A DNA stretch of 64,000 bases from a bacterium (GTDB lineage Bacteria; Patescibacteriota; Gracilibacteria; JAUYGZ01), in the NCBI GenBank assembly GCA_030690415.1, contig JAUYGZ010000008.1, positions 1 through 64,000 on the forward strand. The letters run 5' to 3'. Below the pieces are notes generated by a model that made no database searches, was not told the origin of the DNA, and saw only the letters and a program-made list of their open reading frames with translations. Positions within the stretch are counted from its first letter, which is position 1, and each line of letters starts with the position of its first letter. Below, one piece after another: positions 1 to 16,500 of the stretch. Both the position numbers and the translations under genes were made by a program.

Positions 1-1
1 T

Positions 2-145
2 CATCCTCCAAATCTTTTCCATGAGTTTTTTCAAAAGAAACGCTCGGAAGGCAAACCATATAGGGTAGCTTTGTGTGCCGTAATGAGAAAGATGGTGCAT
101 GTTATTTACGCTGTTTGGACGAGAGGAACGCCGTTTGTTTCTTGA
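2..145 (+). CDS. IS110-family transposase, C-terminal end (partial)
   Basis: The reading frame is open from the window edge to a TGA at 143-145. Its 47 residues include GKPYRVALCAVMRKMVHVIY, which has the look of the C-terminal Transposase_20 domain of IS110-family enzymes (a GK, an A-x-MRK block and a hydrophobic tail ending in PF). These DEDD transposases move circular intermediates, and some members (the IS1111-attC group) insert specifically into integron attC sites. That fits the attC-like core at 210-216. Only the tail is in the window, so catalytic residues cannot be judged. A bidirectional terminator follows directly. Confidence 0.72.
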   Translation, partial: HPPNLFHEFFQKKRSEGKPYRVALCAVMRKMVHVIYAVWTRGTPFVS

Positions 146-155
146 GTTTTTAATT

Positions 156-190
156 AAAAGGGGCAATTGTTAAAAATTGCCTCTTTTATT
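156..190 (+). terminator. Intrinsic terminator after the transposase
   Basis: GGCAATT at 162-168 pairs with AATTGCC at 175-181. The stem extends outward through A/T pairs to 156/187 and is followed by TTTTATT. It ends the transposase transcript. The A-run on its other side would let it also work on the minus strand, where it would stop read-through from the defence operon. Confidence 0.7.
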
Positions 191-209
191 GTTGACTGCG
201 ATATAGGTA

Positions 210-279
210 GTTAGCTGATGTATTCCTTTTCTTTTCCGACGATAGTCGGTTGTTTTAAAAATTTTCAAATTTCTTTTTC
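210..279. repeat. Left extended inverted repeat with cassette-start box GTTAGCT
   Basis: This 70-nt segment begins GTTAGCTGATG and is the near-complement of 8621-8692 at the far end of the defence module. Both copies carry a small hairpin at the same place, CCGAC-GATA-GTCGG here and TTGGGC-TATC-GCCCAA there. Stem bases differ but pairing is kept. The first seven bases match an integron R' box (G^TTRRRY-like), and the far end carries the matching R'' box AGCTAAC. No attC arms lie upstream; they may have been displaced by the IS110 insertion. Confidence 0.7.
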
Positions 280-296
280 CGTTTTTGGTGGTGGGC

Positions 297-404
297 AGAG
301 GGGAATTAAAGGGGTGAATGACCATCACCCAAAACACCTATTCTTGGTTCGAGGGAGGGGCAAGAGGGGAACAAAAGGGGTGAATTGCCCCGATCGAAAA
401 CAAT
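297..404. repeat. Two divergent GGGGAA direct repeats downstream of the Shedu gene
   Basis: Two copies of AGAGGGGAAYWAAAGGGGTG occur near 297 and 372. Each is followed by a short hairpin (GGGTGA/TCACCC and GGGGTGAATT/GCCCC-type). The segment is gene-free and lies just inside the left inverted repeat. Similar GGGGAA-hairpin units occur inside the right end (8490-8620, opposite orientation). Function unknown. Confidence 0.45.
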
Positions 405-1805
405 CTATGTTTTTATGTTCTCTACATATCTTTCAGCCATATTTAAAATTTCATCAAAAGTGAATATTTGTATATTGTGAATACTATTTCTTAACTTAGT
501 GAAATCCTTTTTTAGTCTCTTTTTCTGATCCTCGCTTAGTATATTCTGATTCTTGCAAATCTTACCGTAAGAAGAGATGATAATAATTCCTCGTGGTCTG
601 TATAGATTCTGATCGATATTAAGATAGCTTAGAAGATCTTTTTTATCTTTTGTTTTCTTAAATTTCTCGTCAGTTATTGCATCCATGTAATTTATCGATT
701 GGATAATTGCCTTGCTCATTTCGGAAGAAAAAGCGAAGTTGTCATGGGAATTATCCCAAACTAAAACATTTTTCAGGTGTGTTTTGATTTCAATAATATC
801 AACTCCGTCATAGTGATTTACTCCGACAAAATCAGGGTACTTCTTGTCTAGGTTTTCAAGATCTTTAAGTTCAACCTTAGGAATAATCTTTTTATAGGAG
901 AAAAACAAATATAGGAGATATTTTTCAAAGTATTTTTGCCAAACAGTTTCGAGTTGCCCAATGTTTTCTGAAAAATGTAATTTTATTAACTTTTTCGCTT
1001 GTTTTGTTTTTACATTACTACTTTTAAGTGCGAGGATTTCTTTTCCTGCTTGAATAATGTCTTCAAGTTTTTCTTTTATAAAGTAGTCATCCAGTTTTCT
1101 TAGATACTCCTCGTCAAATACCTCTTTTTTGATCATTTCCTCGAAGAGAGAGCCGAGTGACGTTATGTCATCCGGGTTTAAATACTGTTGAAAATCCTTT
1201 TTCTTCTTTTTTGTGTTTAGATTGAGTCTATTGATGAGAAAGTCAAATTCACCCTTTGTAATACTCGTAGTTTTTTGAGTTCTTTTATTTAGGAAAGTAA
1301 ATTTTGTTTGATTAATTAAAAAATTAAGAAGGCTTGTTTTTGAGGATTTTGCTCTTTTATCTATTTTTGTTATTTCCGCTTGTACCTCTTTGAATTTTTC
1401 AGGCTGTATCAATAGGTTTTTTGCTCTTTTTTGAAGTTCTGTTTTGTAGTTTGCTGAAATTTTTACAATATCAATGCCCTCAAATATTTTTTTAAAAATC
1501 CAGTGTTCTTTAGAAAAATTATATCCAAAGCTATTTCTTTCTTCATTTGACCAGTATTTTATAAAATCCAAAGCGTTTAAATCCTCATGAATAAGCAACG
1601 TAAGGTAATTTTCTCTTTTTATAATACTTCTCTCTATCGTATCAAAGTCATAAAAGTTTATTTTCATAAAGCCCTGTTCTTTCATGAGAATGTATTCCTC
1701 TGAATCAGCTATTTTAATGTGGTTATTTTCTTCGTTAATATCTAAAAAAGTGCTCCATGGGAACTTTTGAAATAACTGATATATGTTTGTAATCTGATCG
1801 GGCAT
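405..1805 (-). CDS. Shedu-like nuclease, DUF4263 C-terminal domain
   Basis: The 466-residue protein is Lys- and Glu-rich. Its last third, from about residue 290, reads as the DUF4263 (SduA) nuclease: YPDFVG, then DGVDIIEIKTH, a PD-(D/E)XK-like D...E-I-K signature, then helical segments. The first 290 residues are an unrecognised alpha-helical region. In known Shedu systems SduA acts alone as an oligomeric anti-phage nuclease. Here it is the last gene of a four-gene operon, 7 bp after the methylase stop codon, so it is probably co-expressed with the restriction genes. Base composition is AT-rich, like the rest of the module and unlike the core genes. The nuclease domain is fairly secure; its job in this operon is inferred. 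Confidence 0.65.
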   Translation of the reverse strand: MPDQITNIYQLFQKFPWSTFLDINEENNHIKIADSEEYILMKEQGFMKINFYDFDTIERSIIKRENYLTLLIHEDLNALDFIKYWSNEERNSFGYNFSKEHWIFKKIFEGIDIVKISANYKTELQKRAKNLLIQPEKFKEVQAEITKIDKRAKSSKTSLLNFLINQTKFTFLNKRTQKTTSITKGEFDFLINRLNLNTKKKKKDFQQYLNPDDITSLGSLFEEMIKKEVFDEEYLRKLDDYFIKEKLEDIIQAGKEILALKSSNVKTKQAKKLIKLHFSENIGQLETVWQKYFEKYLLYLFFSYKKIIPKVELKDLENLDKKYPDFVGVNHYDGVDIIEIKTHLKNVLVWDNSHDNFAFSSEMSKAIIQSINYMDAITDEKFKKTKDKKDLLSYLNIDQNLYRPRGIIIISSYGKICKNQNILSEDQKKRLKKDFTKLRNSIHNIQIFTFDEILNMAERYVENIKT

Positions 1806-1812
1806 GTTGTGG

Positions 1813-4800
1813 TTACTTTATAGAGGAATCCTCAACAATTTTAATTTCTTCACTCGTAAGACCATAAAGTTGATATACAAGTTGGTCAATTTGCGCCTCA
1901 TACTCCTTGGAAAACGCCTGTTTCTTCGCGTTTAAAGCATGATCCCCATCACTTTTTATAGATGTTATCAAATTTACCAGATCAATAAATGGTTTTTGCT
2001 TTGATTCCGATGCTTCGTGTATTGGAAACTGATCGAGGTGCCTTCTTTTAATATATGGAAATACCTCTGGATTAGTTATAAAGAATTTATTGTAGATATA
2101 GGTAAATAATTTTGAGTTCAATAGCGCCAAAAGATATTCCTCTTTATATTTTTTATCTTTAGTCACGATGTTGTATAAAGATTGTATGGTATAAAATTGT
2201 TTTTCGTCCAAACATGCTGTTAATTTTCGGCCTGTCTTCCTAAGAAGTATCTTTCTGTTTGCTAAATAAACTTTTTCGTTATCATTGCTATGAATTAACG
2301 ATTTATCGAAATTCACATAGTTCCCTCTATCAAACAGTATCCATTTGTCTATATCTTTTCCGCCAAGAACCGGCTTGCTGTTTTGAAAAATTGGGCTTTT
2401 TGAAATCATATCTTTTTGTCCGCCAGTCATAATCCCAATGTAATTTAAGGCCAGATCTCCTAGCGGTTTAGAGAAGAGCTTCATTTTGTCTAAAATATTG
2501 TTTGCCTCATTATCATTAGTTAAATTGAAAATATATTTATCATTTTGTAAATATTTTTTTTGCTCGATAAATATTTGGTTATCTTTGTTTAATAGGTCAT
2601 CTATAAGTATTTTATTGCTGGTGTTGTCATTACTTTTTTGAAAAATTGAAATAACATTATCAACCACAATGGTGCCAAATACCTTCGGTGGTAGTTTCAT
2701 GAATAGTCTGATTTTTGTATTGTCCAACAAAAATTTCCGTATCTTGAAGGAATAAAAATTCGATAAAAAATTCCATGGTGTGATAAATGTTACCAGCCCA
2801 TCATTTTTTAGTATTTTTACAGCCTTTTCAATAAACAAAACATATAAATCTAATTTATCGTAAGCTGTCTCGAAATTTTCTTGATAAATTCTTTTAAACT
2901 CATTCGATATTTTGCCATATTTTGTTGTTACATACGGAGGGTTGGCGATTGCAATATCAAACCCCTCTTTAACTCCAAACATCCATTCTGGATCAAACCA
3001 AGAGGATGCTTGATGGCTAAATGGGTCCCAGGTTGTGAGTTTGGAAGTGAGCTCGGCGTGACCTCTTATATCGCTTTGAATCAAATGATCTAGCATCTTT
3101 TTTTGAACTTGCACAAATTCAAATTTCAATTTGTCTCTTTCGGCTCCGGTTGAGCTAAAGAACAAGTCTCTTAACTCTTGCAGTTCAGTAATTCCGGCTT
3201 CATCTTCGAAGAGATTGGCTTGCTCCTTTGAATTAGATGATTGAGGCAGTACGATTAGGGTGTTTGCTGTAACGAATTTGAAATCCAAGTTAGGCAACGG
3301 CTCAATCCCTCTGTTTTCCGCATTGTCGTCAATGCTTTCATCTACGATAAGAGTCAAAAAGCATCGTAAGCGAGAAATTTCCGTTGCAATGGGCTGAATA
3401 TCCACGCCAAAAATATTTTCTCGGATAATTCCAAGTTTGCGAATATAGTCAAAATTTTTGTTTTCAAATTCACGCTCAATTGCTCGGCGAATTTCCGGAG
3501 ATGCATGTTGAATTTGTTTTTTAAACCAGTTTTTTCCGTCCGGGTCGGTTTGTTGAAGAATAAAGACAATCTTTTGGAGCATTCCCATAGGGAAAGCACC
3601 GGAACCGCAAGCGGGGTCTAGTATTTTAATCTGATGAAGCGCCTCGGTGATGTTTTTTTGCTCTTCTTCGGTTAAAGGATATTCCGTATCATCGCCTAAA
3701 TCATAGCTAATGACTGCTCGTATTTTTTCCTCACCAATGCCGGTTTTATTGCTTAGGTAAGCATAAAGGCTCTCATCGACCATATAGTCGACAATAGTCC
3801 TTGGGGTGTAGTAGCTTCCTGTGCTTTTTCGAGCCGATTCTCCGGTTTCGGGATTAATCTCGGCAAGGAGATTTTCAAAAATGCGTCCAAGCATTTCCGG
3901 ATCAATAGAAAGTTCCTCATCAAAACTGATGTTTTCATCAATAGTGAAGTTGTAGGTTTCTAAGAATTCAAAAAATTCTTGTAACCAGGTGTCAGGAACC
4001 CTAACAATGTTATTAAAAATAGCCTGCTTTCCTTCGTTATAATTAAAAAAGTCGTCATAATGTGGTGTAAAAAGACCGCCATTGAGATAAGGTATGGAAT
4101 TAAATCCATTTTGAGTATACATTTCTTTTCGTTCTTTTATCGGTTTATTGAGAACTTCAAAGAATATCGGTTCAAGAACGCTATGATAGTAATTTCCATT
4201 AGCCAGTGCCGCTTCATGAGATAGAAGTGATAACGGCATTAAGGCTATTTCATCCTTACTTTTCTTTTCTCGCAAAAACCAGCAAAAAATAACGCGACCA
4301 ATTAGCCGGACGGCAAATTCAAGTGAGGTTTGGCTTTTATCCTGAATCGAGGGGAGTTTTAGGAGCGGTTCATATTCATTTTTACTTTTTCTATTGCCGA
4401 CAGTGCCACCAACCAGTTTGGTAAACAGTTCCGATATTTTTTTATAAAAGTCTTTATTTACAACCTCAAGCGAAAACCGACTTTGTAAATCTTCAAAATT
4501 AGAGACTGACCCTTTGCTGATCAGGAATTTCTCAGGCGTTGCTGTTTTGCTGTTTGGCCCAAGAATAAAAGAATAGCGTTTTGGGCTAGATCGTTCAATC
4601 GTGAGTTTTGCTTTCTCATTTCTTTTGGGCGTAAGCGTCATTAATGAAAAACGCCATTGATCATCATCTTCTGAATAAAACGCAATAAGAGCTCGAAACG
4701 CGCCACTTCTCCTCATGATTTGAAACCCTCCCAATGTGAGCCCAACTCGTCTTTTGGATGTACCTGTATGTTTAATTTCAAAAACTTTGAGGTCTAGCTC

Positions 4801-4950
4801 TCTGTTTTCACCTAGCAAGTACGCAGATTCAATATCGCTAGATTTTGTTTCTGTTGTCTTTATTTCCCGTTCATCAACATATAAGTCAGGTAAAAATTCT
4901 GTGACAAAATTAATAAATCGTTCTCTATTATAGGTTTTTCTCAATATCAT
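1813..4950 (-). CDS. Eco57I-type restriction enzyme-adenine methyltransferase (type IIG-like)
   Basis: This 1045-residue protein has the layout of a combined restriction and modification enzyme. Near residues 50-60, ELDLKVFEIKH may be a PD-(D/E)XK nuclease core. The methyltransferase has SAM motif I DPACGSGAFPMG at about residue 445 and catalytic motif IV ANPPYV at about 665. A target-recognition region follows. It would methylate adenine N6. The gene overlaps the helicase stop codon by 4 nt (ATGA), so the two are translationally coupled and likely form one complex. It could equally be the modification subunit of a DISARM- or BREX-like system. I saw no drmA, drmB, pglZ or brxC homologues nearby. 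Confidence 0.8.
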   Translation of the reverse strand: MILRKTYNRERFINFVTEFLPDLYVDEREIKTTETKSSDIESAYLLGENRELDLKVFEIKHTGTSKRRVGLTLGGFQIMRRSGAFRALIAFYSEDDDQWRFSLMTLTPKRNEKAKLTIERSSPKRYSFILGPNSKTATPEKFLISKGSVSNFEDLQSRFSLEVVNKDFYKKISELFTKLVGGTVGNRKSKNEYEPLLKLPSIQDKSQTSLEFAVRLIGRVIFCWFLREKKSKDEIALMPLSLLSHEAALANGNYYHSVLEPIFFEVLNKPIKERKEMYTQNGFNSIPYLNGGLFTPHYDDFFNYNEGKQAIFNNIVRVPDTWLQEFFEFLETYNFTIDENISFDEELSIDPEMLGRIFENLLAEINPETGESARKSTGSYYTPRTIVDYMVDESLYAYLSNKTGIGEEKIRAVISYDLGDDTEYPLTEEEQKNITEALHQIKILDPACGSGAFPMGMLQKIVFILQQTDPDGKNWFKKQIQHASPEIRRAIEREFENKNFDYIRKLGIIRENIFGVDIQPIATEISRLRCFLTLIVDESIDDNAENRGIEPLPNLDFKFVTANTLIVLPQSSNSKEQANLFEDEAGITELQELRDLFFSSTGAERDKLKFEFVQVQKKMLDHLIQSDIRGHAELTSKLTTWDPFSHQASSWFDPEWMFGVKEGFDIAIANPPYVTTKYGKISNEFKRIYQENFETAYDKLDLYVLFIEKAVKILKNDGLVTFITPWNFLSNFYSFKIRKFLLDNTKIRLFMKLPPKVFGTIVVDNVISIFQKSNDNTSNKILIDDLLNKDNQIFIEQKKYLQNDKYIFNLTNDNEANNILDKMKLFSKPLGDLALNYIGIMTGGQKDMISKSPIFQNSKPVLGGKDIDKWILFDRGNYVNFDKSLIHSNDNEKVYLANRKILLRKTGRKLTACLDEKQFYTIQSLYNIVTKDKKYKEEYLLALLNSKLFTYIYNKFFITNPEVFPYIKRRHLDQFPIHEASESKQKPFIDLVNLITSIKSDGDHALNAKKQAFSKEYEAQIDQLVYQLYGLTSEEIKIVEDSSIK

Positions 4951-7900
4951 ACTCGGTGTTCTTGGCTAAGAAGTATTATTTCATGCTCATCCTCGAATTT
5001 ATTTACACGCTTGTTTATAACCTCAATTTGATATTCAGGGATGATTAGTTGTAGCTCTTGAAAGGCCTTTTCAATATCTTTTATTTCCAGCTGAGCAATG
5101 TCTTTCATTGCTCCTTCACTGAGATCATCGTATTTTTCAATAATGTCTTTTAAATCGTCGCAATAATTTTTTGCCTTAGGCAGCTCATTTTTAATGAGCT
5201 GTATTTTTTCAAGCGCTTTTTGTCTTCTGCCCTGAATTTTAGGGAGTTCGTGTTTCTTAAAAAGTTCATCTCGAATAAGTGCAAAAGTTTCGTCGTAGCT
5301 TTTATCTCCATTTTCTCCCACATCTCCGGGTTCGGCGGAAAAATAGTGAAGCGCGTCTTCGGCTGAGCAAATTCTTATACCCTCGTCATCTGTGCCAACC
5401 GCAAAAATGCTATGACTGCCTTTTTTACCAAAACCAACCATTGCAGGCTGTGGCATTTGTGGACGAATAACTCGACTTCTAGAAGGTATATCTATCACGA
5501 GTTTCATTAGATCCTTATCATCTTTTGACTGTTCGTAAATTTCCCTATACGGCGCGTCCCACGATAGCTGCTCTTGTCGCTCTTCACTTTTTTTGTATTG
5601 TTCAATAAAAAAGCTTCTTACTTCTTCGTCGTTGGTGAGAATTTGCGTGTCTGTTCCAATTACCGAATTAATGAGCCTCATTTTCAGAGTGGAAACCTCT
5701 TTAATGCGAGCTGTTTTTTCTCCAATATGAGTTGGGAAATAGTTATAAATATATAACTTATCAAACACTTTCTTATTAATACGGTTTATACGTCCAATAC
5801 GCTGAATAACACGTGTGGGGTTATACGGAATATCATAATTGATAATGATGCCAGCTCGATGGAGGTTGTAGCCTTCACTTATGGCGTCAGTAGCCAACAA
5901 CACATCATAATCATCGCTTTGGGTATCGTCTGGAACGCTTGCATCAAAATTTTTCTTTAAAATATCGTTACTTTGCTTGCTTTTATCTTCGGAGGTGTAT
6001 TTCAATAGCCTTAAGCCGCTTTTTTCTGAGAGAACGTCATAAAGATATTTAACCGTATCTGCGTAACTGGAAAATACTACGATTTTTCGTTTTGGATCCT
6101 CTCGTAGAAGCTCGGAGAGCGTTTCAGTTAATCCTATAACTTTGGGATCATGACCTGCTTTTTTATCACTTCCAAACCAGTTGGTTTGTATTTCATGAAG
6201 TACCGCAATATCGTGCTCAAGTTCGGTAATAAAATTTTCACTTAGGCTTGATGCATCAATCGCTATAAGACCTTTTGAAGTTCTCAATTTTTCTAGCTCG
6301 TCTTCAAATAAGTCTTTTTTCAATTCTTCATCGATTGAATCTGAGTTTTCAAGCAAAAAATCAGGATCAGGAATTTTACCTTTTTTATAAATTGGGACTT
6401 TCCCAACTTCATGATACCAACGTTTGATTAACTCGTTAGAATAAATAATATTTTGTAGCGTTTTTCTGAATGCTTCTTTTGAGCTTTCAAAACGCATCAC
6501 GAGCAATCTTTTCATGAATGAAGCCAGGTTTGTTTGAGCTGTCTTTAGGTCACTTTCATCTAAATCTTCACTATACTTTTTAAGAAAGTCAGAAATGTCG
6601 TCAATATATGTTGTTGGCTTATAACGTGCCCCAATAAAGCCAGTTTCTTTATTCGTAAGTTTTTCTAGAGTGTCTAAATATAATTCGGTAAGTTCTCCCA
6701 GTTCGTATTCTTTAAGCTCCGGGCCGGCAACTTCTGCAAATTTAATGTTTTGTCTTTCAAGATCTTTTTTGTACTTGGAAATATAATCAAGATCCAGTCT
6801 TGACCTGCGTATAACTACTGTTTCTATAAGCCGTCGAAGCTCTTTTGCAATAATGTCCGCTTCACTGGCAATCTGATATTCTGTTAATTTTTCTTTTGCT
6901 CTAGCGCGATTTAATTTCTTATATCTTGTGATGAGCTCTCTAAACCGCAAACTTAGATTGTCGATAGAGCGAATTGTTGAGCGTCCGGGGGTTTGAAATA
7001 GCTTTATAAGAGCAAAAACATCCTTTGGATCATTATTGAATGGAGTTGCCGTAAGTAGAAGTATTTTGTGATCAGGGTGACTTCTCGTTACCTGCCAAAG
7101 TTTTTTATAATCATCTGTATCTTCGTTTCTAAATCTGTGAGCCTCGTCAATAACAATAAGAACAGGCTCTTTGCATTTATGATATTTTTCGTAAACTTGT
7201 TTAATATTCCCAGAGCTGAAAATTTGAGTTCCTGGAATTTTGAATTCAGCTTGATAGTCTTCCCACTGATTTTTCAAATGAGGTGGTGCGATTATAACTG
7301 TTCTCATGCCCATGTTATGAGCTACGGCAGAGGCAATAATACTTTTACCCAGCCCAACTACATCAGCAACAATAACACCGTCATACTTATCTATTTTTTC
7401 GATTGCCGATTTAATAGCGTCTACTTGATATTGAAGATCAATATATTGACCATTGGTAATTTTTTCAGGTGTTTCAATATCCGCAGCTTCGTCATCAAAA
7501 CTGAATAATTCATGTAGTACTCGTAAGTACATGATGTATGGATCAACTTTTGCATGAATCCATAACTGCGTATCAAGCGCATCTAAAAACTCATCTCGGG
7601 AGTCCGGAGTAACCACGTTAATACTCTCTGCGTCATTCCATGATTTTTGGAAATGTTTCGAGTATTCGATAACTCTCTCTGTGTTGTCAAACTGTTCGTT
7701 AAGCTCTCCTTGAGCTATCAGCCCGTTATAGGTGAAATTACTTGAACCCATGAAAACTGTTCCAGTGTTATCCTCTTTATTGCTATGTAAAATATACAAT
7801 TTTTCATGACTGGATTTTTTTGTCATTTTTATTTCCAAAGTACCGTTCTGTATTTTCTGTTCAAAAAGCATTAATGCTTCTTGTTGGTCGGTATTATCAA

Positions 7901-8249
7901 AAATTGAGGATTCGTTGAATATTTCAATAAAGCTTTTGATATAATCTTGTTTTTTGCCAGTTCTTGAGGTTGCTGGATTTCGTGGGGCATATCGCGCAAG
8001 CTCGACTTCTCCACCTTCTCTACGCGATGCTGACAGCATTTCTTTTACCACATTTGGATCAATGTAATTTCCAACAACGATTCTGACGGGTATATCTTTT
8101 AGATATTTAGCTAATAATTGCCAGCCTGAAAAATAAAAAAATGCGACAGAAATATCGATACTTGTAATATTTTTTTGTTCCAAGACATTTGCGAGTGCTT
8201 GGTACATGGTGCTTTCCCTGTTGTTTATGATTTTGAGATTATTTGCCAT
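4947..8249 (-). CDS. PLD-nuclease/SNF2 helicase fusion
   Basis: The N-terminal 250 residues form a phospholipase-D-like nuclease module with an HxK motif (HEKLYI) followed by GSSNFT. A SNF2-type helicase follows: Walker A DVVGLGKS, Walker B DEAHRF, motif III LLLTATPFNN, and a C-terminal RecA lobe with QRIGRINR. It is expected to translocate on DNA and cut it, or license cutting, with the downstream methylase. I chose ATG 8249 (MANNLKIINNRES) because PLD-helicases start near this motif. It lies 4 bp past the regulator stop. ATG 8270, inside the regulator gene, has an AAGG upstream and is possible. The architecture recalls DISARM DrmD plus DrmC in one chain, but that is only analogy. Confidence 0.82.
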   Translation of the reverse strand: MANNLKIINNRESTMYQALANVLEQKNITSIDISVAFFYFSGWQLLAKYLKDIPVRIVVGNYIDPNVVKEMLSASRREGGEVELARYAPRNPATSRTGKKQDYIKSFIEIFNESSIFDNTDQQEALMLFEQKIQNGTLEIKMTKKSSHEKLYILHSNKEDNTGTVFMGSSNFTYNGLIAQGELNEQFDNTERVIEYSKHFQKSWNDAESINVVTPDSRDEFLDALDTQLWIHAKVDPYIMYLRVLHELFSFDDEAADIETPEKITNGQYIDLQYQVDAIKSAIEKIDKYDGVIVADVVGLGKSIIASAVAHNMGMRTVIIAPPHLKNQWEDYQAEFKIPGTQIFSSGNIKQVYEKYHKCKEPVLIVIDEAHRFRNEDTDDYKKLWQVTRSHPDHKILLLTATPFNNDPKDVFALIKLFQTPGRSTIRSIDNLSLRFRELITRYKKLNRARAKEKLTEYQIASEADIIAKELRRLIETVVIRRSRLDLDYISKYKKDLERQNIKFAEVAGPELKEYELGELTELYLDTLEKLTNKETGFIGARYKPTTYIDDISDFLKKYSEDLDESDLKTAQTNLASFMKRLLVMRFESSKEAFRKTLQNIIYSNELIKRWYHEVGKVPIYKKGKIPDPDFLLENSDSIDEELKKDLFEDELEKLRTSKGLIAIDASSLSENFITELEHDIAVLHEIQTNWFGSDKKAGHDPKVIGLTETLSELLREDPKRKIVVFSSYADTVKYLYDVLSEKSGLRLLKYTSEDKSKQSNDILKKNFDASVPDDTQSDDYDVLLATDAISEGYNLHRAGIIINYDIPYNPTRVIQRIGRINRINKKVFDKLYIYNYFPTHIGEKTARIKEVSTLKMRLINSVIGTDTQILTNDEEVRSFFIEQYKKSEERQEQLSWDAPYREIYEQSKDDKDLMKLVIDIPSRSRVIRPQMPQPAMVGFGKKGSHSIFAVGTDDEGIRICSAEDALHYFSAEPGDVGENGDKSYDETFALIRDELFKKHELPKIQGRRQKALEKIQLIKNELPKAKNYCDDLKDIIEKYDDLSEGAMKDIAQLEIKDIEKAFQELQLIIPEYQIEVINKRVNKFEDEHEIILLSQEHRV

Positions 8250-8253
8250 ATCA

Positions 8254-8463
8254 TTAATTAATAAGTTCATCCACGCTGACCTTGAGTGCCTCAGCAATTT
8301 TTTTTAGTGTTTCGATTGTTGGATTTGTATTTGCTCCACTTTCAACAGTAACTACTGTATTTAAAGAAAGGTCTGCTAATTTAGAAAGTCGATCTTGCGA
8401 TAGATTTTGCTCTGTTCGCAGCCGTTTGATGTTCTTTCCAATGGTATTCTTAGGGTTTGGCAT
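8254..8463 (-). CDS. Xre-family helix-turn-helix regulator
   Basis: This 69-residue protein is a single Cro/C1-type HTH domain: IGKNIKRLRTEQNLSQDRLS, a turn, then SLNTVVTVESGANTNP and ALKVSVDELI. I used ATG 8463 because the product then spans exactly one domain; the frame is open further upstream through repeat sequence. It is the first gene of the defence operon and is followed at once by the helicase, which suggests autoregulation of the whole unit. Small Xre controllers like this commonly delay restriction expression until methylation is complete. A sigma70-type promoter lies just upstream at 8491-8519. Confidence 0.85.
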   Translation of the reverse strand: MPNPKNTIGKNIKRLRTEQNLSQDRLSKLADLSLNTVVTVESGANTNPTIETLKKIAEALKVSVDELIN

Positions 8464-8489
8464 ACCAATATAATGTATAGATTTGATTG

Positions 8490-8620
8490 TATGGTACTGC
8501 TTTGAAATTCCCCTGTCAAAAAGAGTGTTTCGCCGATAGGCGGAATTCCATATATTCCCCTCATCAAATAAGCGTTTCCGGAGTGTAGCGGAGGAAACAC
8601 CATATTTCCCCTCCTCAAAA
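8490..8620. repeat. GGGGAA-hairpin direct repeats upstream of the regulator
   Basis: On the plus strand, TTCCCCT-N-TCAAA occurs three times at roughly 50-bp spacing. The first two are followed by different hairpins: CGCC-GATA-GGCG near 8533, and TTTCC-N-GGAAA near 8573. The stems differ while the pairing is kept, so structure rather than sequence seems conserved. The array overlaps the operon promoter. No gene is supported here. Confidence 0.5.
8491..8519 (-). promoter_or_regulatory. Promoter of the defence operon
   Basis: Read on the minus strand, TTGACA (8519-8514) is separated by exactly 17 bp from TACCAT (8496-8491). The Xre start codon is 28 bp further on. The -35 box lies inside the first GGGGAA repeat, so that repeat array could be the operator. 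Confidence 0.5.
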
Positions 8621-8692
8621 GAAAAAGAAATTTGAAAATTTTTAAAACAATTGGGCGATAGCCCAAAAAAGAAAAGGAATATGTCAGCTAAC
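8621..8692. repeat. Right extended inverted repeat of the defence module
   Basis: The reverse complement of this segment starts GTTAGCTGACATATTCC and continues through a TTGGGC-TATC-GCCCAA hairpin to TTTCTTTTTC. It matches 210-279 nearly throughout. Its last seven bases, AGCTAAC (8686-8692), form the R''-like box of the attC-like site that follows. Confidence 0.7.
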
Positions 8693-8768
8693 GTTTGCGG
8701 CCTATGCGACGAATCGCGGTGGTATAATTGTTGAACCACGTGATATGTCGTATAGGCCGCTGTTGTGG
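8686..8768 (+). other. attC-like recombination site 1
   Basis: Order on the plus strand: R'' box AGCTAAC (8686-8692), spacer GTTT, arm GCGGCCTATGCGAC (8697-8710), inner hairpin GTGG/CCAC (8719-8739), arm GTCGTATAGGCCGC (8747-8760), T, R' box GTTGTGG (8762-8768). The arms pair at 13 of 14 positions. R'' is the complement of the box at 210-216, where this cassette starts. R' is the complement of R'' in the next site. This alternation is the hallmark of integron cassette arrays. The site fits the loose attC consensus, not the strict one. Confidence 0.6.
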
Positions 8769-8778
8769 GATGAATAAT

Positions 8779-9009
8779 TTAGCCTTCAATTCCCCATACT
8801 CTCATGACCTGTTCTTTGAAATCAGAGCAAGTGTCATCGAGGCTTTCAAGAAGAGGTTCGACAGCGTCTCTGTCTGTAAGTCTTACGACGCGGTCAATTA
8901 ACTTTCTTGTAGGGTGGTTTTCTGGTAAAGCATGATAAATCCTCTGAGCTGAATTGAGGTATCCAAGCGTTGCTATTCTGCCATCAAGCTTGTCTTGCAT
9001 TTCTTCCAT
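8779..9009 (-). CDS. Small hypothetical protein carried by the second cassette
   Basis: A 76-residue, mostly helical and acidic protein with no motif I recognise. It is the only gene between the two attC-like sites, which makes it a typical one-gene cassette. It runs against the array direction, so it needs its own promoter, and a good one is present at 9034-9061. There is no Shine-Dalgarno sequence before ATG 9009. Small cassette genes are often antitoxins or toxin inhibitors, but nothing in the sequence shows that here. Confidence 0.6.
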   Translation of the reverse strand: MEEMQDKLDGRIATLGYLNSAQRIYHALPENHPTRKLIDRVVRLTDRDAVEPLLESLDDTCSDFKEQVMRVWGIEG

Positions 9010-9033
9010 GAGAGTTGGTTAGGTTGTGATGAT

Positions 9034-9061
9034 ATATTACAATTTATTTATAAAAAGTCAA
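9034..9061 (-). promoter_or_regulatory. Promoter of the small cassette gene
   Basis: On the minus strand, TTGACT (9061-9056), a 16-bp spacer and TAATAT (9039-9034) lie about 25 bp upstream of ATG 9009. A dedicated promoter explains how a gene against the array direction is expressed. Confidence 0.5.
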
Positions 9062-9086
9062 ATATTTTAGGGCTAAATTATATGTC

Positions 9087-9232
9087 CCACAACGTTCGCG
9101 GTATATCCGATGTGCGGAGGGAAATGGAGGCGGTATAATATTTGCGAAGCAACCGCCGGAATGACCGGAGCATATGGGTGGAGCTGAGGGGGTATTTCGA
9201 GGTGGGCGGAACCGGATATACCGCTGATCTGT
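9087..9232 (+). other. attC-like recombination site 2 (large, degenerate R')
   Basis: R'' box CCACAAC (9087-9093) is the complement of R' of site 1. Then come spacer GTTC and arm GCGGTATATCCGA (9098-9110), which pairs 12 of 13 with CCGGATATACCGC (9212-9224). An inner hairpin GGCGGT (9129-9134)/ACCGCC (9152-9157) lies within. The spacing R''-GTTY-GCGG and CCGC-T-G is identical to site 1. The 3' box reads GATCTGT instead of GTT-something but is still followed by GATG, as at the other two boundaries. The array seems to end here. Confidence 0.55.
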
Positions 9233-9417
9233 GATGTCCGCCTTCTTCTTTTTTGTATCCATTCGGCGGGCTCAGGACATGTTTTGTATTCTTACTCTGC
9301 TTTAAGGAATTTTGGACAGGATTTTTTTATAGAGGCGAGCGGCAGAGGGTAGGGTGAATGCCGTGAAGCCATTATTTTTATCAAACTGGTAAATCTTTAT
9401 CTGTCATTTTTTGGTTC

Positions 9418-9446
9418 TTGACCTATTGACAAAATAATGATATTAT
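9418..9446 (+). promoter_or_regulatory. Orphan sigma70 promoter
   Basis: TTGACC (9418-9423), a 17-bp spacer and TATTAT (9441-9446). The predicted start, 7 nt on at about 9453, is the first base of a foldable segment. The next genes are on the opposite strand. Confidence 0.5.
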
Positions 9447-9452
9447 TTCTTT

Positions 9453-9509
9453 GTAGGATCAAGTGGGGAGACCCTCCCAATAAATGAGGCTTTCAAACCG
9501 CTTTCCTAC
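9453..9509 (+). ncRNA. Candidate small structured RNA
   Basis: GTAGGA (9453-9458) pairs with TCCTAC (9504-9509) and closes a 57-nt segment. Inside, GGGAG/CTCCC forms a tight hairpin. The 5' end of the fold coincides with the predicted transcription start. No T-run follows, so the 3' end is uncertain. I do not recognise a family. Confidence 0.3.
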
Positions 9510-9525
9510 TATTTACATCAACTCA

Positions 9526-10254
9526 TTACAAAATATAGATAGGATCCCAGTCTTGGTCCTTCTTTTTTTGTGCGTATTTCGTTCGTAGCTCTCTAAAGCG
9601 TTTTACCAGATCGAGTTTTGGCCTGCTTTTGAGATGTTTCTTTTCGAGTTCGTAAACGGTTAACCCCAAGAGAAGATCGGCGAGTTGAATGAGATCGTGT
9701 ACTCTGCTATCCAATCGATAACACCGTGAGAGGTTATTTCTCTTGCGAATATCTTCTTCGAACTTATAACCAGCCGGGGTATTGAAAGAATCGAGAAAGA
9801 AAACGGATTGCGTGTGCTGTCTTTGTTTGAGGGCTCCGAGATCCAGTTCATCCAATTTGTCGAAAAAGTTATTGATGGACGTTTGATGATCGTCGATGAA
9901 AGGTGCGTTGAAAAACATGATGGGCAACGGGCCTTTTGACCAGTATTGAAAGAATTGTTGAATGAATTCTTGAGCGATAAATGACCTGATGAGATTGAGG
10001 CTTGACCACTTGATCTCTCTCATCTGCTTGTTCAACATGTTGATTTCTTCTGATCTTTGCTGAACGGTCAGTCCTTTTTTGGTCTCGATTCGTTGTTTAT
10101 GAAACATATCAGCGTTTTGCCTTACCCTGAAGAATGCTTGGGTTAAAGCTGGTGCAAGTCGTTTTTCCATCACGAGCACTCCAATTCTTCTGGAGCGTGT
10201 TTCTTCGTCCATGAAGAAGTCGAATTCTATCGGTTCGCCGTCGAAGGTGATCAT
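9526..10254 (-). CDS. DUF3800-like protein
   Basis: A 242-residue protein resembling DUF3800, an RNase H-like fold frequent in defence islands. The first strand ends in an acidic FFMDEE near residue 15, replacing the family's usual DESG. A VFFLDS strand lies near residue 150 and the C-terminal SRVHDLIQLADLLLG helix near 185-200, which is the most family-like part. It is the last gene of a minus-strand run of five. The unusual N-terminal motif could mean a divergent or inactive member, so the family call is moderate. Confidence 0.5.
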   Translation of the reverse strand: MITFDGEPIEFDFFMDEETRSRRIGVLVMEKRLAPALTQAFFRVRQNADMFHKQRIETKKGLTVQQRSEEINMLNKQMREIKWSSLNLIRSFIAQEFIQQFFQYWSKGPLPIMFFNAPFIDDHQTSINNFFDKLDELDLGALKQRQHTQSVFFLDSFNTPAGYKFEEDIRKRNNLSRCYRLDSRVHDLIQLADLLLGLTVYELEKKHLKSRPKLDLVKRFRELRTKYAQKKKDQDWDPIYIL

Positions 10255-10322
10255 GTTTTCTTTTGTTTATCAGGGGCTTTACGATAGCAGTCACTCTTGT
10301 CTTTGAAAATCGGATTTGTTCT

Positions 10323-11873
10323 TCAGACATTTTTTACAGTTTTAGCTTGCGAGTACATGATTTTCACGGGTTGCATTGGCTTCTCCAGCACTTCAAAGAT
10401 TTTCACCATCGCCAAAGTGTCCAGTTTACAGTATTCCAATAGATCCTTTTTCAGCGATTCTTTTTCCGATTCATCAGAAGTTTCAAACATCATTTTTTTC
10501 CATCCGTTCATCGCCATGGAGCCATCTCGTATGTTCAAATTGGCGTAGGTCATTTGCGGTACCAGGACGGGCAAGACGTCCTTAATGGAAAAGCCTCCTT
10601 TGAAGTCAGGATGGAGATAGAGGTGTTTGGAAAAAATTTCCATCAGGTCAAAGAGCCTCTGGTTATAGTCACGAAAAGACTCAGCGCCATCTGGCATCAG
10701 ATCAGCAAGATCTTCGTTGCATTTTTCTTCAAATTTCTTGTTCCAAACGATGATGTTTCCTTCCTTCCCCATCATGTTCGTCAGGGTGTTTGCCAGTGCA
10801 ATCATCGGGTGGGATTCTGGATCTGTGTGGAGGTATTCATAGTGCTCCAATGTGCCACCTGGTCCTCTCAGGACGTGCAATGAAAACTGAAAGGGGACTT
10901 GTTGATAGGGAGCGCAGCCGTCGTAGATCGGCACGGCGGTAGGGTAGGTTTCGTAGTCCAAAAAATAGAGGGGGTACTCCAGTTCATCGAATGCTTTCTG
11001 GATTTCTTGGGGCTTGATAATGGGAATGTTCGTTTGAGCTACCTGCACATGGTTTCGTTGGTACTCCGTCAGTTCAAAATCTTCAGGAACCTCTTCGAGA
11101 GCATAGTGGCCGTCCTCTACCAGCGCTTCCAATCGTTTGGGGCTCAGTCCGATGCGGACAATGTCGTGAACCGAGTAGTCGGGGACATCGGGGTACAAGT
11201 ATTTGAAAGCCGGGCAGTGGTTATTGCGCGATTTGTAGATGCAATCGCAGGGAAGTGGTTCTCTCTCCTGTTCGATCAGGTGCTGCATGCCGGGGATCAA
11301 GAGCTGGACCTCTTTTTCCAGTTCTTTCACGTTTTCGGTAATGTCGGTGATTTTCAGGAGTTCTCGGGGCTTGATCTCCCCGTGCTTGCGGAATTCTTTG
11401 TTTAATTCGATCAGGTTCACTCGTCCGACATCGAGTCCGGCCTTTTTGGCCACGATGTATTGAAAAGTTGCATCATTGAGCTGTTCTTCTTTCTTTTTCT
11501 CTTTGCTGCTGGTGGCTTTTACTTCATTGATGATCCAATGTCCAAGGCTCTCATCCCACTCTAAAATATCCACCATGGCATAGAGGTTCTCGGCTTGGAA
11601 TGTGGCCTGAAAAATGGCTTTGTTCTCTTCCGCGAGGAGTTTTTGAGTTTCTTTGATGGCGGCAGCTTCTCTACTGTTCACCAGAACGCCTCTGGGAAAT
11701 AATTTCCTGGCCCAGAGTTCTACTTCCTTCCCATTTTTAATGAGTTCTTTATCAAAGTCGCTCAGTTCTTGTTCCCTGAGCACTTGTGGTTTTTTCTTGA
11801 AGAACCAGAAGTATGCGGGGCATTCAAGGTAACGGAGGAAGTCGGATTTGGTGATGGGGGAGGTGGGGGTCAT
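10323..11873 (-). CDS. DUF2779 nuclease: Cas4-like domain plus RNase H-like exonuclease
   Basis: The 516-residue chain starts with a helical ITKSDFLRYLECPAYFW segment typical of RecB/Cas4-type nucleases, followed by an EVKAT core near residue 118 and a cysteine cluster (CDCIYKSRNNHCPAF) near 210 that could bind an iron-sulfur cluster with an upstream Cys. From about residue 295 a DEDD-type exonuclease begins: YFLDYET is its first acidic motif and a late YCKLDTLAM its last. This arrangement is the DUF2779 family, of unknown physiological role but often near mobile or defence genes. It sits third in the same minus-strand run, 43 bp from its upstream neighbour. Confidence 0.72.
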   Translation of the reverse strand: MTPTSPITKSDFLRYLECPAYFWFFKKKPQVLREQELSDFDKELIKNGKEVELWARKLFPRGVLVNSREAAAIKETQKLLAEENKAIFQATFQAENLYAMVDILEWDESLGHWIINEVKATSSKEKKKEEQLNDATFQYIVAKKAGLDVGRVNLIELNKEFRKHGEIKPRELLKITDITENVKELEKEVQLLIPGMQHLIEQEREPLPCDCIYKSRNNHCPAFKYLYPDVPDYSVHDIVRIGLSPKRLEALVEDGHYALEEVPEDFELTEYQRNHVQVAQTNIPIIKPQEIQKAFDELEYPLYFLDYETYPTAVPIYDGCAPYQQVPFQFSLHVLRGPGGTLEHYEYLHTDPESHPMIALANTLTNMMGKEGNIIVWNKKFEEKCNEDLADLMPDGAESFRDYNQRLFDLMEIFSKHLYLHPDFKGGFSIKDVLPVLVPQMTYANLNIRDGSMAMNGWKKMMFETSDESEKESLKKDLLEYCKLDTLAMVKIFEVLEKPMQPVKIMYSQAKTVKNV

Positions 11874-11916
11874 GACTTAGTTGTTTTTTGTGGGTAAAGT
11901 TGGTTTTTTCCTCAAT

Positions 11917-12588
11917 TTAAAAAACAAACGGTTCGGAATTAATCTTTCTTGGACCAGACTTGGGGTTATTTATATGCCACAGTGGCCAATCTAACTCTTT
12001 CCAAAGTTCAAAGTATTGTATATCAAATTTAATCGGCTGACCTTGATTTATTCCTAAAACGACCAATTTTCCTTTTGTTCGATAGCGATTTCCGGTTTGA
12101 ACAATAGGTTGAATTTCGAATGGTATGAGAATTTTTTCTTGGAAGTTTACAAAACTTTCACATCTGTAGTCTTTTCCAAAAGTGGTTCTTCCATATTTAT
12201 CAAACATAGCCTCGTCCGAGCCTACCTCAGCCATAAAAGCGCAATCATGTGCTTGAAAACGTTCATTATATTTATCAAAAAAACTTTTTATATCCATCTC
12301 ATAGTTTGTAAAAAGTGCTTGCGCTCGCCATTCAGAAGTCCACCAAGAATAGAGATCCCTTCCTATTCCAAAAAGTCCATAAGTTAAAAAAGACAAAATT
12401 ATCAAACCAGCAAAGATCGTTGATCCTTTACTCCAGATAGACTTGGAATTTTTCCAATGCTTAACAAAATTTTTAAACAGATCTACTAAAGATTCCCAAA
12501 AAACAAGCATTATAATGCCGCAAAACATTTCCCATAACCCCGGAAAAAATTTTTCTGAGCCATTTCGAATGTTTTTAAAAGATTTCAA
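11917..12588 (-). CDS. Hypothetical membrane protein
   Basis: This 223-residue protein probably has two hydrophobic segments near the N-terminus (about residues 18-38 and 56-77), followed by a roughly 140-residue soluble domain with two cysteines. The first codon is TTG at 12588, with no ribosome site; an in-frame ATG 20 codons on would remove the first segment, so the start is uncertain. It lies 23 bp after the TIR-like gene and may work with it, for example as a membrane partner. No family recognised. Confidence 0.55.
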   Translation of the reverse strand: MKSFKNIRNGSEKFFPGLWEMFCGIIMLVFWESLVDLFKNFVKHWKNSKSIWSKGSTIFAGLIILSFLTYGLFGIGRDLYSWWTSEWRAQALFTNYEMDIKSFFDKYNERFQAHDCAFMAEVGSDEAMFDKYGRTTFGKDYRCESFVNFQEKILIPFEIQPIVQTGNRYRTKGKLVVLGINQGQPIKFDIQYFELWKELDWPLWHINNPKSGPRKINSEPFVF

Positions 12589-12611
12589 ACGATTTTTTTA
12601 TAGTGCTCAAA

Positions 12612-13481
12612 TTAGTGGATTTCTGAAATGCTAACAGGATTTAAAATCCCCTCAATTGTCGAATCTAGGTCTGATTCCAATACTTGTTTACCTTTAATAG
12701 AATTCTTATATTCGATTCTTCTTATATGTGAAATATCAAATGGGAACTTCGGTTCAGGGGTCTTTTTTTGATATATCATTATGGTTTCTTTTCCTAAGGT
12801 ATGAGCAATTCCTAACTCATACATCACATTCGGATTCAGGCTAGTTAAATCAGCAATTACTATTCTGGCTTCACATAGAGCTTTCCATATATCATTTAAT
12901 ACTACTTTGTTGGTTTTGAAATCGTCCGCTCTTCTACATATTAGATCCTTGCTTTCAACGGTAGGCTTGATGATTGATTTATAATTTTTTGTTAACTTTT
13001 TTTCAAATGGCATTAAAACAAATACAAGTTTCGGATCAATTTTGTAACTTGCAGGTCCAAAGACTGGTGATACTTGTATGAGTGACATAGTTTCTACAAC
13101 TCTATTAAATTCTGATTCTACATGAGATTTTGCTACTGCTGCAATTACACCTGCTCTCTCTTGTTCGCTTTTTTCAATAATTTCTTTAGGAAATGAAATT
13201 ACAAAAGGTTCATCAAATCCAAATTCCCATTTTGCTTGATTCAAAGCTTGCTGAATTGAAAATTCTTTTTCTGGTAAATCAAAATAAATGGTTGTAGGCA
13301 TTCCTGCACTTTTGGTAGCTAATACAAAAATATTTTTTTTATCAATAAAGATAACCAAATTACAAGCGAGTTGGCTTCGTACAACTGCTCTTTGTAACTT
13401 TCTTTGATTCGATTCCTTTTGAACTTCTAATGCAAACTGGTCCAGTATTTCAAGAACTTTTTTTTGATTTTCGGCATCCAT
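12612..13481 (-). CDS. TIR/nucleoside-deoxyribosyltransferase-fold protein
   Basis: The C-terminal half (from about residue 150) has VFVLMPF, then RRADD, a DIWKALCEARIVIADLT helix-strand, NPNVMYELGIAH and GKETIMIYQ. That is the order seen in nucleoside 2-deoxyribosyltransferase-like and TIR-like folds, where the Glu of the YELG motif is the catalytic candidate. The N-terminal half is unrecognised. ATG 13481 was chosen because AGGAGG lies 4 nt upstream, one of the few clear Shine-Dalgarno sequences in the window. It starts 38 bp after the methylase stop, so it looks like a restriction-linked gene, perhaps a nucleotide-degrading effector. That role is inferred. Confidence 0.6.
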   Translation of the reverse strand: MDAENQKKVLEILDQFALEVQKESNQRKLQRAVVRSQLACNLVIFIDKKNIFVLATKSAGMPTTIYFDLPEKEFSIQQALNQAKWEFGFDEPFVISFPKEIIEKSEQERAGVIAAVAKSHVESEFNRVVETMSLIQVSPVFGPASYKIDPKLVFVLMPFEKKLTKNYKSIIKPTVESKDLICRRADDFKTNKVVLNDIWKALCEARIVIADLTSLNPNVMYELGIAHTLGKETIMIYQKKTPEPKFPFDISHIRRIEYKNSIKGKQVLESDLDSTIEGILNPVSISEIH

Positions 13482-13519
13482 TTGGCCTCCTGTTGTGCGT
13501 GCGCCCTTATGAAACATAA

Positions 13520-16500
13520 TTAATCCACTAATGATATTTTATCAATCTCCTTCATAATCCGATCCGTCTCCACCAAAGCCACAATCATCTTTTGGTAATG
13601 CTCAATCTCTTCATTTGAAAGAGCTCTTCCTTTTCGATCTTTAAGCCACTTCTGAGCCGGTTGGTAGCCTCCGATATAGAAATTCCAAGCTATCTCTGGC
13701 ACGTTCCCAAAGTATTGTTTCGAGTTAATAAAAGCCTTTTCATCCATGTAGGCGATCTTTTCAACAGCATTTTCTCCATCTTCGGGGTAAGTGGTGATGA
13801 ATTTATTAAGCACTGAAGATTTCAACAGATGTAATTCCCGTAATTCTTGTCCCATGGCAACGAGCGCGTCGAATTGTTGCTTGTTTTTGGGGTATGGAAT
13901 ACGGGGAAAATCGATTTTTAGAAACTCTTTATATTTTTTTCTATAACCAGGTGAGTGAAGTACAGCGTAAATGTAATCGAAAGTATCTTCTGGAGATATT
14001 TTTCCAACATTTTTTTCAATCTCATTAACGATTTTCTTTTCTAGATTAGGAGTTTTTGATCCATTCTCATCAAAAATGTAAAGTGGAAGAAGGTAAGTAG
14101 CTTCGCGCGTTTGCATTGAAATAGAATTTCGATCAACTATATTATTTGAAACCAAAACATGTTGAAATCCAAAAGTACTTTGCTGACGAGAAACCTGAAA
14201 ACCAATGTTATTGTGACCCACAAAATTTTTCATTGTTTCAGGCCTTGGCCTTTGAAAAACACCTTCACTATTTGAAGAGTATAATGTGTATCTGATATCA
14301 AATGGTCTATATGAAATAGGTGTATATTCTTGAATAACATTATTCAAATCCTTTTTGACATTAATTATTTTTTTCTCATCAATTTCATATTTTTGAGTTA
14401 CTTCTTGGACAGAGAAGTTATTTAGATGATTTCGAAGATCCTTCAATTCATTAACAGAAAATTTGATCAAAAAATCATCTTTTCCCGTAGATGCTCCAGG
14501 TGACCATTTTTGAAATAACTCAGTTAGTTTAAAGCCTGAATTGTAATCATGTTCTGATGAAAAATCCTTTTTAACAAAAAAATAATAAGGATCAGTATAT
14601 TTTAATTTCTCCCATTTAATTGAATCAATTTTGTTCTCATTAAGAAAAGAGAACTTTTCTGATCTTCTGCCATATAAGTCCATATGGAAAACTTTTCCTA
14701 ATCCATTCATTTTGCTCTTTTTTTTGATAAAGATACAAATAGCTACTCCTTGTTGAATTGCAAACACATTCTCATCTTTTCCGCCATTAGCTGAAGTTTC
14801 TTTCTTTTTGGCATTTCCGTGTAGATCCAAAACATAGATCTCATCGAATGTTTCAAGCACATGCTTTCTCATTTGACGATGAATTATTCCATCCAAAAAT
14901 GAATTATTGGTTATCATAGCAACAATTCCAGTCCCATTTCTTTCAATAAAATGTTCAGCGTATCGAATAAATTTTATATAGTCATCTGAAAGCGGCTGAA
15001 TATTTCTCTCTTCTAGGCCATTTTTGTAATCTTTTATTAAATTTGTAATCCAGTCGCCTTTATTCGAAGAACTAACACTGTAAGGTGGATTTCCTGTGAT
15101 AACCATTATTGGCGTTTGATTCTTAATTTCCGAAGCGCTAATGGCTTCCTCTGCGATACTTTGTGAAAGTCCGAATGAAAACAGATCATTTCCCGTTAGA
15201 TGGCCTTCTTCCAGAGAGTTGGTGAGATAAATTCCCAATCTTCGAGAAAAGGCAGTGTAGCCAGTATCTCTCAAAGTCATTCCAAGTTTGAGATGAGCAA
15301 TGGTGTAAGGAGCCATCATTAGCTCGAAACCATGTAAACGCGGAAGAAGATCAGTGTCGACGTAGCTGCGCCATCTGCCTTCTTGTCCTGAAAAATTTTT
15401 GTGGATCTCTTGAACAATCTCATTCAAAAATGTCCCAGTGCCAACAGCCGGATCTAGAATTTGCACTTGGTGAACCATTTCCTTTCGCTTTTTCCCTTGG
15501 ATATCTCTTTCCACTTCGATTTTCGAAGTATCGGCAAGTCCATTTGCTAATCCAAAGGTGCTTTTCAGAATGTGATCGATTGAACGAACAATAAATCGAA
15601 CGACGGGTACCGGGGTATAGAAGGCTCCTAGTTTTTTCCTTTGAGCAGAGTCGTATTCCTTCAAGAAGTCCTCATAGAAATGGATAACAGGATCCGGTCC
15701 TAAATCTTCATGTCCTTTCGAGTCTTTTTCAAAGTATTGGTGCATCAGCGAGCGAACATCCGCGTGTGCGAAGACCTCGCAAAGCTCATTCACAATATAT
15801 TCAAGACGTTTATCAAAATTCGGCCCGACGATATGATCAAAGAAGTGCTGCAAGAGGGGATTTGAGGCAGGAACTAGGTCTCGAGCTTCTTGGCGCGAGA
15901 AAGTTTCAGGGGTTTCATCATGAAAACGTGCAACAAAAAGTCCGTATACGAGAGTTTGAGCATACATATCTGCAAAGTCCGGAAGCTCTAGATCATGAAC
16001 TAAGAGTTCTTTAATCACATCGTACACTCGTTTCAATTCTTGGCTTCTGTCAGGCTCATTTTGCAGGGTGAATGAAACATTGTCTCGAATACGGCGTGCC
16101 TTTCCTCCCATGATTTTCGCCAATTTTGATCCACTCTTGATGTTTTCGGGAGTACCTGTGAGAAAGTCTTTGAGGGTGTCAGCTAATGCAGAAAATCGAT
16201 CCGGGCGAGGAATAATAGTATTTCCCTGCAATTCGGCAATAACTATTGGATCACCATATCTTTCACCATTCCTAAAAAAACGAAACTCAAGATAGTTGGT
16301 AAGAATGAGGTTCGAATAGCCAAAATATCGTTCTAGCTGTTCGCTTTTTTCCACCTTATCAAGGTTGATATTCACGTCTTTTGTTTCAGCATAACCAGCA
16401 ATGAGCTGCTTCCGCATAAAAATGAAATCCGGAGCGCCATGTTCAGATTTCTTCGGATCATTTATGGACTGGAGCAAGGGATCGATGACTTTTATGAGAT

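Follow-up and report, generated by a model that had tools for sequence, protein, structure and literature searches.

The first 64 kb of contig C7 (165 kb) in the genome of a patescibacterium of the class Gracilibacteria, hereafter the window, contain near their start a unit of 8483 bp (unit 1, positions 210-8692, minus strand in the orientation defined by the integrase) that encloses a four-gene putative defence operon. Comparison with the genomes of its class suggests that this super-cassette belongs, as a single cassette, to an integron-type gene-capture system widespread in that class of Patescibacteria, a reading to which we assign a probability of roughly 0.88. It draws on the anatomy of the units, a rule that pairs their terminal boxes, covariation in the sites that join them, linkage of these sites to a recombinase and an attI-like site, and the recurrence of the same ends around other cargo. 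We also lean towards the view that the system is an integron lineage of the Patescibacteria's own, with a recombinase without patch III and cassette-specific repeats of 22 to ~70 bp, in which long ends mobilise whole defence systems (Type III restriction-modification (R-M), IIG, cyclic-oligonucleotide-based antiphage signalling (CBASS) plus methylase, Shedu/SNF2) as 5-11-kb cassettes that have recently spread between families and are reportedly not carried by classical integrons. The window's genome (G000) comprises 1.45 Mb in 30 contigs and is 98.8% complete. The comparison set consisted of 288 genomes of the class, and 380 genomes of the phylum were scanned with IntI models; G, L and C numbers denote genomes, loci and contigs.

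Both units at the start of the window are bounded by matched ends. The boxes described in the first-pass annotation, which was made from the letters and open reading frames alone, are present: GTTAGCT at 210-216 and AGCTAAC at 8686-8692 for unit 1, and GTTGTGG at 8762-8768 and CCACAAC at 9087-9093 for unit 2 (8762-9093). The match extends far past seven nucleotides, to ~70 bp in unit 1 and 28 nt in unit 2. The terminal inverted repeats of unit 1 occupy 210-279 (left, beginning GTTAGCTGATGTATTCC) and 8621-8692 (right, beginning GTTAGCTGACATATTCC on the reverse complement); 210-235 and 8667-8692 are 92% complementary over 26 nt, 250-279 and 8621-8650 are 100% complementary over 30 nt, and a short hairpin whose stem differs between the ends separates the two blocks. 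The repeats of both units start precisely at the boxes and rank among the longest inverted repeats in 9.4 kb.

Units across the comparison set start with GTT-N4-GA[A/C]A and end with CATC-N4-AAC. For 80 pairs of consecutive sites, the N4 following GTT at the unit start was set against the complement of the N4 preceding AAC at the unit end. Agreement was perfect in 48 of the 80 units and covered at least three of the four positions in 61, compared with perfect agreement in 5% of random pairs and in 4 of 122 comparisons between the two boxes of one hairpin site. The boxes therefore belong to cassettes and not to sites, and they change together with the cargo, which is the behaviour by which the first-pass annotation had proposed to judge its own reading. 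As far as sequence can tell, such pairing within the cassette is the footprint of integron-type recombination. In the 65 units with agreeing N4 the cassette-specific inverted repeat is ~22 bp long and contains a fixed mismatch of two nucleotides: identity is 0.9-1.0 at positions 0-8, drops to 0.15 and then 0.08 at positions 9-10 (where one end reads GATG and the other GAAA or GACA), returns to ~0.7 at positions 11-21 and equals background beyond ~25. Several units of L089, L106, L115, L123 and L124 carry, right after GTTNNNNGA at their left end, an inserted palindrome resembling repetitive extragenic palindromic sequences (CCCGAGCG... or GGGTGAGCG...), which terminates the inverted repeat there. 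Unit 1 has subterminal repeats at 297-402, and its subterminal hairpin repeats (AGAGGGGAATTAAAGGGGTGAA..., window 280-405) are found again on contig C30 of the same genome (L160, 4490-4612), where the outer end preceding them is a different one, so that cassette ends look modular.

The units are joined by attC-like hairpins of 65-155 nt, whose boxes ...AAC and GTT... align and which covary as imperfect palindromes. In their stems 96.2% of cells are paired, the covariation score is 0.596 against 0.148±0.009 after shuffling and below 0.08 when partners are slid, and double changes occur in 10 of 12 pairs. The first-pass annotation had suggested searching for these sites with a covariance model; our own model (R1), built from 14 aligned sites, scores 87.6 bits at 8693-8761 and 103.8 bits at 9094-9225 (both minus strand), and it detects arrays of up to ~18 sites per locus, upstream of recombinase genes and on the recombinase strand. 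The site at 8693-8761 folds far better than its shuffles (z of -4.1 and -5.8 on the two strands). The site at 9094-9225 has a 12-bp outer stem and a near copy on contig C8 (94% over 141 bp), yet its fold as a whole is not exceptional, and its reality therefore rests on homologues and covariation. A pattern derived from these two hairpins picked out clusters of such sites in G001, which represents a second genus of the window's family, and in several family f10 genomes; a pattern search allowing 2-3 mismatches gave mostly chance matches outside a few clusters. R1 found no sites at loci from Moranbacteria, Paceibacterota or Magasanikbacteria, the latter two of which carry the attI-like motif described below, and an Rfam search returned tRNAs only. 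A GGTATAAT-like extended -10 motif was seen in 53 of 122 attC-like sites, directed toward the recombinase and antisense to the cassette genes (2 in the opposite direction, 1.4 expected after shuffling; 8716-8725 and 9118-9128 in the window). It may act as a promoter, either opening the site or silencing the cassettes.

The best recombinase candidate in the window's genome is a 278-residue protein encoded on contig C6. It belongs to a single-copy family of ~275 residues that is related to IntI and Xer and in which the catalytic residues R, K, H, R, H and Y are invariant. Orthologues occur in 85 of the 288 genomes and attC-like sites in 100; 67 genomes have both, 18 the recombinase alone, 33 the sites alone and 170 neither (Fisher p=4.6e-24). 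The compared genomes include TGA-recoded relatives. On the side of the array, the contig breaks off within 100-650 bp of many recombinase genes, as would be expected from repeats. At ~18 loci the motif AAC|TCSTTTYTATACGAA...TATACGAA directly follows the last cassette, usually 50-190 bp from the recombinase start codon, and the end of the cassette adjoining the recombinase gene agrees well with that cassette's own start. Within this attI-like site TCSTTTYTATACGAA is followed by a second TATACGAA, forming direct repeats, and the motif also precedes the recombinases of Paceibacterota and Magasanikbacteria. In G002, from the window's family, a unit-1-type right end abuts an attI-like site next to the recombinase. 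Away from the recombinase, a unit-1-type cassette ends at the attI-like sequence TCGCTTTTAGGCGA (L153, ~4918, on contig C30 of G484), which is a possible secondary insertion site. Near the recombinase of G001 a reverse transcriptase gene (RVT_1) is the cargo of a cassette (C5; L045, 5105-6526).

This recombinase differs from integron integrases in one respect that bears on classification. It scores 191 bits against model TIGR02249, whose cut-off is 265, and leaves profile positions 180-220 unmatched; the patch III insert is absent (63 versus 105 residues between the conserved blocks, and a gap of ~42 residues against the IntI4 structure 2A3V). Patch III is treated as defining IntI (PMC9668308), so we do not file the system as an IntI integron. 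NCBIfam models for XerA, XerC, XerD and integron integrases match the protein together, none above its cut-off, and the genome encodes a separate XerC/D-like protein (P0003, 248 bits). No classical IntI scored above the cut-off in the window's genome or in the 380 phylum genomes, one of which gave a match at 1e-60, below the cut-off. In the phylogeny obtained, IntI proteins with patch III form a clade with 100% support and the array-linked recombinases a separate clade with 98% support, whose members are all from Patescibacteria except for one Spirochaetes sequence. A joint clade of IntI and array-linked recombinases was not rejected by the approximately unbiased (AU) test (p=0.57). An independent origin of the recombinase, considered from the tree, was dropped, since the AU test allows a common clade with IntI. 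A further patescibacterial recombinase (L044, G231:C5) carries a different insert near the position of patch III and reaches 235 bits with the IntI model, below the cut-off. The earlier description of the locus as integron-like thus stands with regard to the box rule, the hairpin attC, the attI-like site and the linkage to a recombinase, but not if it implies an IntI integrase.

The ends of unit 1 recur around other genes, which the first-pass annotation had proposed to look for in related genomes. Its left 81 bp (210-290) are present at 94-99% identity in G421, G021, G097, G484, G008, G052 and G387 and at 89-94% in G577 and G502, that is, in nine other genomes of seven families, the window's family not among them. 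Both ends bound a 10.8-kb segment with Type III R-M and an IrrE-like gene (G484), Type III R-M systems of 6.1 kb (G484) and 5.3 kb (G097), 6.0 kb with IIG and DUF6119 genes (G008) and 1.6 kb with an HNH gene (G052). The left end alone was found beside a CBASS cyclase with a C5 methylase and, separately, a PtuA-like ATPase (both G421), Type III R-M with an SMC-like ATPase and DUF2130 (G021), and a C5 methylase (G387). Matched cassettes have a median length of ~690 bp, and just three are longer than 3 kb, so the long-ended cassettes of several kilobases form a special class. The exact 29-nt end had no match in IMG/VR.

The array probably continues from unit 1 through unit 2 and unit 3 to attI and the recombinase, with the C7-C6 join deduced from sequence. 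Unit 2 (332 bp, minus strand, 28-nt inverted repeat) holds one small open reading frame of ~76 residues on the minus strand. Unit 3 (9226-16688, minus strand) is probably a second super-cassette, with DUF3800, DUF2779, hypothetical genes and a Type ISP restriction-modification gene (13520-16648). Its right end is visible only on C6, beside attI and the integrase; its left end, GATCTGTGATGTCC, matches that right end, and the start of its Type ISP gene is 96.8% identical over 378 bp to the C6 cassette end. The C6 recombinase gene is preceded by the attI-like site and then by the end of this unit-3-like cassette. A search for an integrase upstream of the window had been suggested; the contig begins at the window start, and the recombinase was instead found on C6 beside a homologous copy of the unit 3 end. 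Further cassettes lie at contig edges of C6, C8 and C30 of this genome (L003, L011, L160), the whole array being split by assembly. The one at the C8 edge apparently has a Fic-like gene, and those on C30 have DUF3800-like, apparently SIR2-like and Mrr-type restriction genes (Pfam shows Mrr_cat only).

Two claims of the first-pass annotation are reversed by the position of the recombinase. It had placed the cargo on the strand opposite to the array, but the recombinase sets polarity and the array reads right to left in the window; 46 of 54 units have their longest open reading frame directed away from the recombinase (p=1.4e-7), and the cargo genes thus have the classical orientation. It had also taken the folded site at 8693-8761 as closing the 8.5-kb module, whereas this site is the attC of unit 2, and the one at 9094-9225 is that of unit 3. 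Each cassette's attC lies at its window-left end, as confirmed independently by the flanks of unit-1-type cassettes in G008, G421, G484, G021 and G097: the 140-bp flank outside the left end is 92-94% identical in them, whereas the flanks right of the right end are unrelated. The attC of unit 1 itself, present left of the end in relatives, is not visible; the 209 bp before position 210 are the 3' end of an element resembling the insertion sequence IS110 (1-209, plus strand). A second copy on contig C30 (L160, 115-150) stops at the identical base, GTT, before another cassette, and the other, N-terminal half of an IS110-like gene lies at the C8 edge (PF01548, 20 bits, below cut-off). The element, which abuts the GTT box in both copies (190-216 in the window), apparently uses the attC sites of this system as targets. 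Unit 1 probably lost its attC to this insertion, and, because the element sits where that attC should be, it is probably immobilised, its excision presumably being blocked.

The cargo of unit 1 agrees in domain models with the four genes named earlier. All lie on the minus strand and overlap or abut as one operon: a Xre/Cro-type regulator (8254-8463; HTH_3, 55 bits), a PLD-SNF2 nuclease-helicase (4947-8297; Helicase_C, SNF2 and PLDc_2), a Type IIG-like adenine methyltransferase (1813-4950; Eco57I and TaqI_C, 109 and 91 bits) and a Shedu-like nuclease (405-1805; SduA_C, DUF4263, Pfam PF14082 at 64.9 bits with a cut-off of 27; PADLOC SduA at 2.6e-15). The operon had been credited with its own promoter, and a sigma-70-like match does lie upstream (8491-8519, minus strand), but at chance level (1 found, 1.7 expected). 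The nuclease shares the SduA_C domain with Shedu, and parts of the unit resemble DISARM (defence island system associated with restriction-modification): the SNF2 protein is near DrmD and the methylase near IIG and DrmMI. Unit 1 contains no DrmA or DrmB gene; no DrmB match was among those listed, and the DrmA and DrmD models match the SNF2 part only. Four other genomes of the class (G578, G596, G019 and G094) have the SNF2-methylase pair without an accompanying Shedu gene; no attC-like site was found in three of these stretches, and the fourth has one ~3 kb away. Shedu may thus be a later addition to a two-gene core of helicase and methylase. The most likely role of this cargo is to restrict phage infection or to abort it, with the methylase and SNF2-PLD helicase acting as the restriction-modification core, Shedu as an added nuclease and Xre as the regulator.

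We propose that the attC strand folds, that the recombinase brings two sites together at GTT, and that cassettes would enter or leave at attI; the recombinase would thus perform the reaction, with a folded single strand as its substrate. Exchange at GTT would swap entire cassettes, which is why N4 and the following ~11 nt would stay matched within a cassette. Circularisation would bring the inverted ends of a cassette to either side of attC and lengthen its stem, and the fixed 2-nt mismatch could mark polarity, like the extrahelical bases of classical attC (PMC8946536). Large cassettes with ~70-bp ends of the GTTAGCTGATGTATTCC family would in this way carry complete defence operons between families.

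Several other explanations were considered. Unit 1 could be a DNA transposon, or a transposon-borne defence island, with ~70-bp inverted repeats that stands beside hairpin sites by chance; the long repeats common to elements with differing cargo in several other families and the subterminal repeats would fit. We nevertheless regard this as highly improbable: no transposase is present among the four genes or the scanned cargo genes of same-end units, no target duplication was noticed (no systematic search for one was made), most matched array units, small or large, have cassette-specific repeats starting at the GTT box beside attC, and attC travels with the left end. That unit 1 consists of several ordinary cassettes fused through lost internal attCs is unlikely, if the least improbable of these explanations. 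In its favour are the short median cassette and the absence of Shedu from the related SNF2-methylase loci, by which Shedu may have been added here. Against it, the boxes and 70-bp repeats at the two extremes of the unit are matched to one another, its genes make up a single operon, and units of 5.3-10.8 kb with these ends in other genomes enclose single complete systems.

The low score of the recombinase, 191 against 265 bits, and its joint match to Xer and integrase models would also be expected if the array were a degraded or acquired classical integron (a cluster of attC sites lacking an integron integrase, CALIN) and the nearby recombinase a housekeeping Xer without a role. This is very unlikely given that the genome has its separate XerC/D-like protein, that the recombinase co-occurs with the sites, adjoins them with an attI-like site and groups with other array-linked copies, and that the only IntI-model match at 1e-60 among the 380 phylum genomes fell below the cut-off. 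Scarcely more probable is that the modules are of the Xer/dif type (pdif), although the recombinase is Xer-like without patch III and the ~22-bp repeats with their 2-nt centre resemble two binding arms of 9-11 bp; the arms differ per cassette and pair only within a cassette, the joining sites are long covarying hairpins, and one attI-like platform lies beside the recombinase. The assignment of unit 1 to an integron-type system has points against it as well. The evidence is that of sequence comparison; linkage is deduced across C6, C7, C8 and C30, over which the array, integrase and neighbouring cassettes are split; 33 of the 288 genomes have sites and no detected recombinase, with 18 showing the reverse; and unit 1 is now without a visible attC of its own. 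The 14 training sites of R1 include those of the window, and some units are mismatched at N4 through missed sites, mis-parsed boxes or real decay. As a control for repeat length, aadA2 alone among class 1 cassettes could be paired automatically (a 12-nt match without the 2-nt mismatch), and one cassette is too few to count.

Classical integrons have 7-bp R boxes. With IntI integrons, both class 1 and sedentary chromosomal, the present system shares a recombinase gene with an attI by its 5' end that contains direct repeats, genes directed away from it, hairpin attC sites, the GTT crossover box and boxes matched within the cassette. It differs in its integrase, which is without the ~42-residue patch III and in the tree falls outside the patch-III IntI clade, in the ~22-bp cassette-specific repeat with its 2-nt mismatch in place of R boxes, in the very short outer spacer on one side of attC and in its multi-kb, multi-gene cassettes. 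IS110/IS1111 elements are known to target attC sites, and the IS110-like end here, attributed through a weak Pfam match, abuts a cassette GTT box in two copies; in this case the host array is not a classical integron. Defence genes are also cargo in Vibrio integrons (Darracq 2025, Getz 2025). A review of these integrons (PMC12409362) reports that the defence systems they carry are streamlined and that larger ones, with more than two genes, are conspicuously missing, whereas complete multi-gene systems of 5-11 kb are here found in single cassettes. We found no report of integrons in Patescibacteria, Peregrinibacteria or Gracilibacteria in the open-access literature, which does not prove that there are none.

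Known integrons are small-cassette platforms with patch-III integrases. If our interpretation is correct, a second form of integron in Patescibacteria would show which parts of the mechanism are essential, and one set of ends with many cargos would offer a natural experiment on cassette size and origin. Bacteria with very small genomes would thereby gain a route to exchange complete immune systems.

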